From Polynucleobacter rarus (GTDB lineage: Bacteria; Pseudomonadota; Gammaproteobacteria; Burkholderiales; Burkholderiaceae), in assembly GCF_003072505.1 (NCBI RefSeq), contig NZ_NTGB01000001.1:2793622-2857621 (forward strand): DNA of 64,000 nucleotides, read 5' to 3'. This document shows positions 49,031 to 51,515 of the stretch, in pieces (positions within the stretch are counted from its first letter, which is position 1; each line of letters starts with the position of its first letter). The position numbers were made by a program, and so were the translations under genes. A model generated the notes under the pieces. The model was not told where the DNA came from, did no database searches, and worked only from the letters and a program-made list of their open reading frames with translations.

Positions 49031-49631
49031 AAAACTCCTCTCTACCAAGGCTATAAAATTTTCTATCGCCTTATGCCTACTCTCTGCTTTATTTGCCTGT
49101 GATAATGTTCCCCCAAAATTCTTAAATACGGATATCACTGGCTCAACGGCATTTAACCCTAACTTTGAACTAGTCGACCATCTAGGCAACGTCAGGCACT
49201 TAGCTGACTTCAAAGGAAAAGTTGCCATTATTTTCTTTGGATTTACCCAGTGCCCGGATGTCTGCCCGACGACATTAAATGAAATTAAAGAAGTAAAAGA
49301 GTTATTGGGTAAAGATAAAGATAAACTTCAGGTCATTTTTATTACAGTCGATCCTGATAGAGATACTCAAGAAATCTTAGCGCAATATGTACCGAGTTTC
49401 GACCCTAGTTTCTTAGGTTTAAGACCAGCAACTCCTGAAGCATTGGAACAAGTTGTGAAAGGTTATAAGATATTTGTCCAAAAAGATTATTCAAAGGACG
49501 GTAAAAACTACACAATCAACCATACCGCCGGCAGCTATGTAGTGGATAAAGAGGGTAAATTACGTTTGTTTATTAAGCACAATCAAGGTGCCATAGGACT
49601 AGTGAATGATTTAAAGCAGTTAATGAATTAG
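49023..49631 (+). CDS. SCO1/SenC-type copper chaperone lipoprotein
   Basis: A 202-residue lipoprotein (lipobox LFAC, Cys26) with a thioredoxin fold. The copper motif CPDVC is at 77-81 in [14 protein letters not shown], with the third ligand His near residue 164 in [11 protein letters not shown]. It delivers copper to the CuA site of coxB. The TAG stop shares four bases (TTAG) with the convergent rpoH stop. Confidence 0.94.
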
Positions 49632-50548
49632 GCGCTTAGAGCGGATTTCATTTTCTTAAGAGCAGCTGCCTCGATTTGACGCACTCTTTCAGCAGAAATT
49701 TGCAACTCATCCGCTAAATCATGTAATGTTAAAGCAGTACCACCAACAAGGTTAGGCAACCAACGAGATTCAATAATTCTGCGTGAGCGTTCGTCCAAAG
49801 AGGCAAGAGCTATCTGCAGACCATCCACTTCTTGATTCATATCCTCTTGCTTCATGAGTACATGAGTCGGTTCAAGACTGGAATCTGACATCCAACTACC
49901 TTGCTCACGAACTTCACCATCTTCATTTTCTGGCTCTAAGGCAATGTCAGCAGCAGAGAGACGGATTTCCATTTCTCGCACATCGTGTTGATTAACGTCT
50001 AAAGCCTTGGCTAGATTTGTGATTTCATCAGAGCTAAGAGCATTTAAAGTAGGCTTATTACTTCTTAAATTAAAAAATAATTTTCTTTGCGGTTTGGTTG
50101 TAGCAACCCTGACAAGACGCCAATTTTTTAAAATAAACTCATGAATTTCAGCTTTTATCCAAAAAATAGCATAAGAAACTAAACGAACACCTTGATTCAC
50201 ATCAAAACGCTTAACAGCTTTCATTAAGCCAATATTTCCTTCTTGAATCAGGTCAGCATGCGGCAAACCATAACCAAGGTACTGCCGAGAAACAGAAACC
50301 ACTAAGCGTAAATGACTGAGAATAAGCTTTCTTGCTGATTCCAAATCATTTTCTTCTTGTAGTTTTTTTGCGTACTCAATTTCTTCCGAAGCAGTCAACA
50401 TCGGCATTTGATTCACTGCTGAAATGTAAGAGTCTAAGGAGCCAACTCCACCTGAGGGTAACACTGGCATTTGAGGTATGAGTGAAGCCCCCTTCTTCTT
50501 TGAAGGAATAACGTCAGAAGTTAAATGAACTAAATTTGCACTCATCAT
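49628..50548 (-). CDS. rpoH: RNA polymerase heat-shock sigma factor (sigma-32)
   Basis: Directs transcription of heat-shock genes, 306 residues. Region 2 holds DLIQEGNIGLMKAVKRFD and SYAIFWIKAEIHEFILKNW. The RpoH box QRKLFFNLRSNK, typical of sigma-32, is at about 155-166. Region 4 ends with LADELQISAERVRQIEAAAL. Two ATGs (50548 and 50545) begin the gene. The only strong ribosome site, GAGGAG, is about 15 bases upstream and is better placed for a three-codon ORF whose stop overlaps this start. A CIRCE operator lies 10 bases upstream. Confidence 0.96.
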   Translation of the reverse strand: MMSANLVHLTSDVIPSKKKGASLIPQMPVLPSGGVGSLDSYISAVNQMPMLTASEEIEYAKKLQEENDLESARKLILSHLRLVVSVSRQYLGYGLPHADLIQEGNIGLMKAVKRFDVNQGVRLVSYAIFWIKAEIHEFILKNWRLVRVATTKPQRKLFFNLRSNKPTLNALSSDEITNLAKALDVNQHDVREMEIRLSAADIALEPENEDGEVREQGSWMSDSSLEPTHVLMKQEDMNQEVDGLQIALASLDERSRRIIESRWLPNLVGGTALTLHDLADELQISAERVRQIEAAALKKMKSALSA

Positions 50549-50556
50549 ATGTTCAT
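50545..50556 (-). CDS. three-codon leader ORF overlapping the rpoH start
   Basis: ATG AAC ATA TGA on the minus strand, with GAGGAG 7 bases before its ATG. Its TGA overlaps the rpoH ATG at 50548. Translation of this minimal ORF could place ribosomes onto rpoH by re-initiation. The sequence is clear, but the role is inferred. Confidence 0.4.
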   Translation of the reverse strand: MNI

Positions 50557-50557
50557 T

Positions 50558-50584
50558 TTAGCACTCCTCTTTAAAGAGTGCCAA
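50558..50584. promoter_or_regulatory. rpoH: CIRCE operator (HrcA-binding site) upstream of rpoH
   Basis: TTAGCACTC, nine bases, GAGTGCCAA. It matches the CIRCE consensus TTAGCACTC-N9-GAGTGCTAA at 17 of 18 positions. It lies 10 bases before the rpoH start, in the untranslated leader, where HrcA repressor normally binds. The GAGGAG ribosome site lies in the loop and 3' arm of the hairpin it would form in RNA. No hrcA gene is in this window. Confidence 0.92.
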
Positions 50585-50781
50585 TCTTTTTCAATGATTT
50601 ATTAAAGGGTAAATTGATCAATATGGATATAAAAAATCGAGTTTGATTGGAGACAAAAAACTTAAAGAAGCCTTAAAAAATTAACGTCATTGAATTCCAT
50701 AGGAATAGTAAGGACTTATAAAATGAAGGTTAATATCATACTTGTTGCCCAAAAAGTTTTTTCTCATCATAATTAAACAAT

Positions 50782-51129
50782 ATGAAATCGACTTCCACAA
50801 TTGAACTCAATACTCAAAAGGCAGCCCATGCTTTTTGGAAAAAAATAGCTCTTCATTACGATGTAAGAAGGATAATTTTGTTTGGTAGTCGCGCCCGTAA
50901 TACGCACGAAAGTGATAGTGATGCGGATATTGCCGTACTCTTAAATGGAACTGCTGGACGTTTTATTACAACTAAGTTTGCCATGGATGACTTAGCCTAC
51001 GATGTACTTTTAGAAACTGGTATTCGGATTCAGCCATTACCCATTTGGCAAACAGAATGGGACCATCCTGAAAAATACTCTAATCCAGAGTTGCTGAAAA
51101 ACATTCAAGTAGAAGGTATTGTTCTTTGA
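50782..51129 (+). CDS. MNT-type nucleotidyltransferase, probable partner/antitoxin of the HEPN protein
   Basis: A 115-residue minimal nucleotidyltransferase. The motif GSRARNTHESDSDAD at 35-49 fits GS-x10-D-x-D, with metal ligands Asp47 and Asp49, and a possible third acid follows in YDVLLE. In characterised MNT/HEPN pairs such as MntA-HepT the MNT protein adenylylates and neutralises the HEPN toxin. It overlaps the HEPN gene by four bases. Most of the surrounding genes are housekeeping, so this pair is likely accessory. Confidence 0.85.
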   Translation: MKSTSTIELNTQKAAHAFWKKIALHYDVRRIILFGSRARNTHESDSDADIAVLLNGTAGRFITTKFAMDDLAYDVLLETGIRIQPLPIWQTEWDHPEKYSNPELLKNIQVEGIVL

Positions 51130-51515
51130 AAGCTAAAGAACTATTTGTAAAGGCTCAGACTGCTGCATCGTCAGCGAAAATACTGCTTGATTCAAAAGAT
51201 CTAGATGGTGCTTGTAACCGCGCTTATTACGCCATGTTTGATGCTGCTCGAGCCGCTCTTATAGCTACAGGCCACGAACAGGAAATTATTTTTACGAAAA
51301 CTCATAGTGGTCTAATTTCAAATTTCAGTCTTAAACTGGTCAAGACAGGTCAGGTTTCAGTTAGTTTAGGTAAATCTTTGAATAAGGTTGAAGATCTTCG
51401 TTTAATGGCGGACTATAAAGGCGATACAGTTGAGTATGAAGATGCGGCCTGGGCAGTTGAGCAAGCAAATATTTTCGTAATTGAACTTATCAATAGCTTT
51501 GGATTAAAGGCGTAG
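51126..51515 (+). CDS. HEPN-domain protein (COG1895 type)
   Basis: A 129-residue all-helical HEPN protein. The signature NRAYYAMFDAARAAL is at about 32-46, and the C-terminal EDLRLMADYKGD is the arginine-plus-ADY pattern of the COG1895 branch. The RNase motif R-x4-6-H of HepT-type toxins is not present, so RNase activity is uncertain. The start is TTG at 51126, overlapping the MNT stop as TTGA, with AGAAGG upstream. Together with the MNT gene it forms a possible two-gene toxin-antitoxin or nucleotide-transfer module. Confidence 0.82.
   Translation: MKAKELFVKAQTAASSAKILLDSKDLDGACNRAYYAMFDAARAALIATGHEQEIIFTKTHSGLISNFSLKLVKTGQVSVSLGKSLNKVEDLRLMADYKGDTVEYEDAAWAVEQANIFVIELINSFGLKA

Follow-up and report, generated by a model that had tools for sequence, protein, structure and literature searches.

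A CIRCE operator predicted to overlie the rpoH core promoter in Polynucleobacter rarus and its Burkholderiales relatives

Analysis of a 64,000-nucleotide stretch of the Polynucleobacter rarus genome (the window) revealed a near-consensus CIRCE element, the site of the repressor HrcA, directly in front of rpoH, the gene for the heat-shock sigma factor sigma-32. Sequence comparison makes it very likely that HrcA controls rpoH. That the element is a true HrcA operator overlying the rpoH core promoter, with HrcA repressing rpoH and heat relieving the repression, we regard as highly probable. The features concerned are given below in window coordinates.

50558..50584, minus strand: CIRCE operator (HrcA site), TTGGCACTC-N9-GAGTGCTAA on the rpoH strand, one mismatch in 18
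49628..50548, minus strand: rpoH, gene of the heat-shock sigma factor sigma-32 (306 aa; NF005143 384.3 bits, TIGR02392 369.5 bits, above the cut-off in each case)
50579..50584, minus strand: predicted -35, TTGGCA, within the left CIRCE arm (consensus scan and left-arm A3>G bias)
50555..50563, minus strand: predicted extended -10, TGC-TAAAAT, formed by the right CIRCE arm and the next three bases (consensus scan and conservation of T at +3)
50548, minus strand: predicted transcription start, at the seventh base past the -10, where the first rpoH ATG has its A
50594..50599, minus strand: place of a sigma-E-type -35, here AATCAT and not recognisable as such, with GAACTT within a base or two of it in 71 of 106 genomes of the order

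Read on the rpoH strand from 50584 to 50558, the element is TTGGCACTC-TTTAAAGAG-GAGTGCTAA and agrees with the CIRCE consensus TTAGCACTC-N9-GAGTGCTAA at 17 of the 18 arm positions; it is followed by AATGAACAT and then by ATGATG. A scan of the whole window returned it as the sole match at three or fewer mismatches, and no match appeared in 100 shuffled windows. The first in-frame ATG of rpoH begins at 50548, a second one follows immediately, and 9 bp (50549–50557) lie between the first and the CIRCE. A preliminary description of this DNA had reported a near-consensus CIRCE directly before the sigma-32 gene; both the match and the gene (369.5 bits against the TIGR02392 RpoH cut-off of 323.1) were confirmed, as was the close adjacency.

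Between rpoH and ftsY (50782–51515), the window also carries a gene for a nucleotidyltransferase (PF01909) overlapping one for a HEPN-domain protein (PF05168), a pair that resembles MNT/HEPN toxin-antitoxin systems by its domains; the nucleotidyltransferase scored 36.9 bits with the MntA antitoxin model, below the cut-off of 60. A search with the motif GSRAR found a similar gene between ftsY and rpoH in loci L008 and L009 and none in L010–L028.

The genome (3.16 Mb, two contigs) harbors one intact hrcA gene outside the window, as the preliminary description had suggested checking. Its product of 339 aa revealed PF01628 (214.5 bits, cut-off 22.2) and PF03444 (24.8 bits, cut-off 21), so that the C-terminal and winged-helix domains of HrcA are both present in the same genome as the operator; downstream follow ferrochelatase, grpE, dnaK, and dnaJ (names assigned by eye). 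Scanning the whole genome at up to three mismatches resulted in three CIRCE matches, one at rpoH, one at groESL, and a third with three mismatches inside a predicted TonB-type receptor ORF (C1:1710085, name by eye). Only the first two have at most two mismatches and, since the second of them lies before groES, the predicted HrcA regulon consists of groESL and rpoH and not of dnaK. The usual HrcA control of dnaK, on which the preliminary description had drawn, is not predicted here, the genome scan having found no CIRCE at three or fewer mismatches at dnaK. The genome's own groES region (L005, 2357–2536) displayed a perfect TATAAT directly before the CIRCE and, differing in this from most groES regions compared, no CCCC-type sigma-32 -10; judged from these motifs, its groESL may rely on sigma-70 plus HrcA.

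A CIRCE with at most two mismatches was found before rpoH in 80/80 of the nearest loci (the best 80 of 149 RpoH loci found), with Polynucleobacter kasalickyi as the closest species that bears a name (RpoH identity 88%). For the order, we sampled 120 genomes of 78 genera. The rpoH search exceeded its cut-off in 118 of them and the hrcA search in 109, among which G083 has an hrcA broken by an internal stop. G029 and G044, in which rpoH was not over cut-off, were excluded, leaving 118 rpoH upstream regions from 117 genomes besides that of the window, one with two copies. Wherever hrcA was intact, a CIRCE at up to four mismatches preceded rpoH (106/106 copies; 44 perfect, 38 with one mismatch, 20 with two, 2 with three, and 2 with four); where hrcA was absent (11) or broken (1), it did so in 0/12, the best matches having 5–8 mismatches. 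The reversed motif, run as a control on the same 118 regions, gave four mismatches in two, five in one, and six to nine in the others. Co-occurrence of site and gene is significant at 1e-16 (Fisher, uncorrected for phylogeny). The 12 cases span seven families, and in three, family relatives retain both gene and site. In G033, which lacks hrcA, the operator is eroded where its sister G118 retains it, with GGAACTTT and TGATAAAAT still there. Two single cases were also seen: G112 without hrcA (L168) has a CIRCE-like inverted repeat with a shortened spacer before rpoH, AGGCACTCTTATTAGAAGTGCCT, either a relic or a new element, and G046 possesses two rpoH copies (L163, L170), each preceded by a separate CIRCE.

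Genome-wide, exactly two CIRCEs at up to two mismatches were counted in 93 of the 120 order genomes, three in 6, one in 8, and none in 13, namely the 12 without working hrcA and G029, where rpoH was not found and groES lies at a contig end; the reversed pattern matched once in each of 7 genomes among the 120 scanned. Among 75 sites listed from 38 genomes and compared by eye, 36 were at rpoH and 39 at groES. Outside the order, 60 of 92 eligible genomes of the class were sampled (46 of 66 with hrcA, 14 of 26 without), and rpoH was preceded by a CIRCE in 42/46 with hrcA, the exceptions being G130, G143, G153, and G181, against 1/14 without. The latter, G133 (L256), has an rpoH CIRCE with one mismatch in a genome where hrcA was not found, which would reflect recent loss or an assembly gap. 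Altogether, site presence tracks repressor presence within the order and outside it, which strongly supports the idea of the preliminary description that sigma-32 stands under HrcA; the scan of related Burkholderiales that it proposed also showed that this wiring is not peculiar to this genome but general in the order sample and in most class genomes with hrcA.

With regard to the promoter, a consensus scan placed TTGGCA-18-TAAAAT with TG before the -10 (10/12 matches) exactly on the CIRCE arms, in agreement with the pattern of sigma-70 extended -10 promoters (TGN, then a -10 with A2 and T6, and a -35 at 16–18 bp). This match is weak when taken alone, since chance would yield about 1.8 promoter-like matches over that stretch. 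The base at CIRCE +3 is T in 105/106 order, 41/43 class (a set including G133), and 81/81 nearest rpoH sites (the window and 80 loci, best of 149), and A occupies +2 in 87/106 and +1 in 69/106 of the order sites; the right-arm TAA and this conserved flank together give TAA-NAT, a -10 with TG in front. As a control we used 27 groES sites, those of 26 out of 30 loci and of the window's own genome, after dropping L268 and L293 (neither hrcA nor CIRCE), L270 (contig end), and L277 (motif not found). There, +3 is T in only 3/27, and the promoter lies upstream, abutting the CIRCE, with a TTGAAA-type -35 and a TATTAT-type -10. Scoring with a weight matrix of E. coli sigma-70 frequencies, the best -10 ended at CIRCE +3 in 99/106 order, 36/43 class, and 77/81 nearest rpoH regions (best of 149), the best promoter lying elsewhere in 7/106, and in 1/27 groES regions; this score partly counts bases fixed by the CIRCE itself, an overlap addressed by the groES control and by base +3. 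The left-arm change A3>G, yielding the TTG of the -35, occurred in 38/106 order sites and its mirror T25>C, which would spoil the -10, in 0/106 (class 11 and 1 of 43; groES 3 and 3 of 27; order plus class against groES, Fisher 0.003). An extended operator as the cause of the conserved AAT behind the CIRCE was ruled out, because the left flank shows no mirror image of it; AAT is also missing at groES. The -35 part of the prediction is weakened by a survey of transcription start sites, in whose available text betaproteobacterial sigma-70 promoters have no conserved TTG in the -35 (PMC8407463). The preliminary description had regarded a transcript start downstream of the element as evidence against HrcA control; a downstream start is what is predicted here, and it does not speak against such control because the operator covers the promoter itself.

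In E. coli, rpoH is controlled by the sigma-E promoter P3, by sigma-70 promoters, and by an mRNA thermometer; this species is not among the control genomes matched by the HrcA profile. Many genomes of the order resemble it in having a sigma-E-type word before rpoH, judged by the sigma-E consensus (GAACTT-type -35, about 16 bp, TCTNA-type -10). GAACTT with at most one mismatch starts 16–13 bases before the CIRCE in 71/106 order and 24/43 class genomes, over a background of 0.7 and 0.4 per offset, respectively, and in 0/27 groES regions; TCTNA falls on CIRCE positions 8–12 in 57/106 order genomes, and the -35 word at -15 together with T10 and A12 was seen in 30/106. HrcA would thus not be the sole input to rpoH in many genomes of the order. 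The window differs from E. coli in lacking the sigma-E word, its expected place reading AATCAT, in a genome without rpoE over cut-off (best 39.1 bits against 236.15), and probably in lacking a 5' leader. Its two sampled genus mates likewise gave no rpoE over the cut-off of 236 (39 bits or less), and all 7 other genomes tested carried it. By these searches the window shows neither the sigma-E factor nor its site, the absence of the site being wider than that of the factor. Only L015 has GAACTT in the usual register among 81 nearest loci (window and best 80 of 149), and G116, from the window's own family and with rpoE, has it at -30, so that a single joint loss of promoter and rpoE in the window's lineage was rejected, as was also indicated by 20 Bordetella- or Achromobacter-type loci (L055, L060, L064–L067, L071, L074, L076–L087) in which the word, at up to one mismatch, stands 12 bp further up, starting 27 bases before the CIRCE, as a shifted sigma-E-type promoter or some other element. 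For Burkholderia pseudomallei, a heat-inducible rpoH promoter under the control of RpoE is described in the available text of a review (PMC5994319).

That word in 71/106 genomes, a better-scoring promoter ending at -31 in L026, and the position of the own groES CIRCE downstream of its promoter are what might be expected if the working rpoH promoter lay further upstream and the CIRCE were a bystander or a road-block at which HrcA stops elongation or hardly matters. We regard this as unlikely, since the CIRCE-embedded promoter ranks first of 120 window positions by weight matrix and is the only minus-strand match of the consensus scan, and since T at +3, which is not an operator base, separates rpoH (105/106) from groES (3/27).

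For an operator fused to the promoter, the predicted start falls on the first rpoH ATG of the window, and a leaderless mRNA is therefore predicted. In the window, 9 bases separate the CIRCE from this ATG, which begins at +10; of 20 relatives (L008–L026, L039), 17 have the same spacing, and the other three have 11 bases (ATG at +12). Across the order sample, an in-frame start with a Shine-Dalgarno of at least 4 nt was found in 101/106, 97 of these lying 22–80 bases after the CIRCE (median 31), and the three genomes with ATG exactly at +10 each have a later start led by a Shine-Dalgarno. Two observations count against a leaderless mRNA, namely the ATG at 35–39 bases in the close kin L027, L028, G030, and G074, and an alternative start in L021–L025, whose second in-frame ATG, 9 nt on, has GAGGT at a good distance. 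A missing Shine-Dalgarno was given little weight as proof, since its use in the window is low overall (4 nt before 9 of 46 ATG-started ORFs of at least 200 aa, with naive starts, against 11.6% of random positions), so that the argument turns on the spacing. Selection on the N-terminal extension was likewise dropped as proof of the first ATG, the synonymous/non-synonymous changes against L008, L009, and L010 (4/2, 3/3, 9/9) being too few, and a mini-ORF overlapping the rpoH ATG (ATG AAC ATA TGA) was discarded, because L008 and L009 do not have its ATG. Predicted from spacing only, the rpoH mRNA of the window is probably leaderless. The wider proposition, that in this lineage (the window, P. kasalickyi, and relatives) rpoH has no promoter other than the HrcA operator and its mRNA is leaderless as well, has in our estimate an even chance of being right.

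An inverted repeat in an rpoH leader could also act mainly as an RNA hairpin, a thermometer or stability element hiding the right-arm AGGAG until heat, like the thermometer of E. coli rpoH. In a 55-nt RNA beginning at 50584, the element does form a 12-bp stem, with a folding energy of -15.1 kcal/mol and a z of -3.8 relative to shuffled sequences, and the frequent A>G at position 3 (38/106) keeps a G-U pair with position 25. Yet all 12 sampled genomes of the order that lack an intact hrcA also lack the element (12/12), a pattern not expected of an RNA switch acting on its own. In 21/106 the outermost bases do not pair, the promoter with the best score would have transcription begin past the element, and GAG, about 15 nt from the ATG, is far for a ribosome site; such a role is very improbable. 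A chance match or decaying relic without HrcA function, as the one arm base off consensus might suggest, has next to no probability in view of the 0 matches in 100 shuffles and of a site present in 80/80 nearest loci (best 80 of 149) and tied to hrcA.

The HrcA/CIRCE regulon of groESL and dnaK is known from Bacillus subtilis and many other bacteria. Compared with it, repressor family, 9-9-9 operator, and groESL as a target are the same here; in contrast, rpoH is the second target, no CIRCE at three or fewer mismatches stands at dnaK, and the rpoH operator contains the promoter instead of lying downstream of it. In the available text of the open literature on rpoH and CIRCE, a CIRCE before rpoH was reported for Geobacter sulfurreducens only, as a predicted perfect site at -51 from the translation start (Rodionov et al. 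2004, PMC545781), whose promoter anatomy is not given there as far as that text goes. That concerns one deltaproteobacterium, whereas the site described here is general in hrcA-bearing members of the order sample, linked to hrcA, and fused to a promoter. Permina and Gelfand (2003), the source of PMC545781 for the beta, gamma, and epsilon groups, may already list rpoH sites of betaproteobacteria. Among titles and abstract openings of the open literature, there was no report of a promoter-operator fusion or of a leaderless rpoH. A CIRCE before rpoH was predicted for Geobacter in 2004, and the new part would be its anatomy here, the predicted fusion of operator and core promoter.

The operator, hrcA, their co-occurrence, the embedded promoter signals, and the two sites with at most two mismatches are read from the DNA; HrcA binding, repression, start site, direction of the heat response, and sigma-32 targets we infer. 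In the proposed mechanism, the left arm would serve as the -35 and the right arm plus AAT as the extended -10 of a sigma-70 promoter, and HrcA bound there at normal temperature would therefore exclude RNA polymerase. In other bacteria, HrcA activity is lost when misfolded protein titrates GroEL. By analogy with this behaviour, rpoH would be transcribed on heating once HrcA is inactive, sigma-32 would then activate dnaK, grpE, and other genes without CIRCE, and groESL would be de-repressed directly via its own CIRCE.

HrcA repression and activation by sigma-32 are usually treated as separate ways of heat-shock control. Here, they appear to form one chain in which HrcA stands over sigma-32, and this is the usual arrangement in the order sample, where no genome without working hrcA retains the rpoH site. 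Since the operator encloses the promoter, the entire sigma-32 regulon would be switched through HrcA, even dnaK, a gene that lacks an HrcA site here. Should the proposition for the window's lineage be right, there would be no sigma-E input, start codon and transcription start would coincide, control through a 5' leader would be gone, and sigma-32 synthesis would respond to heat purely through a repressor switch, the two operator arms evolving unequally because they double as -35 and -10. This lineage, in which rpoE is lacking and rpoH probably has no leader, would make it possible to test whether repression of transcription is enough by itself for the induction of sigma-32.
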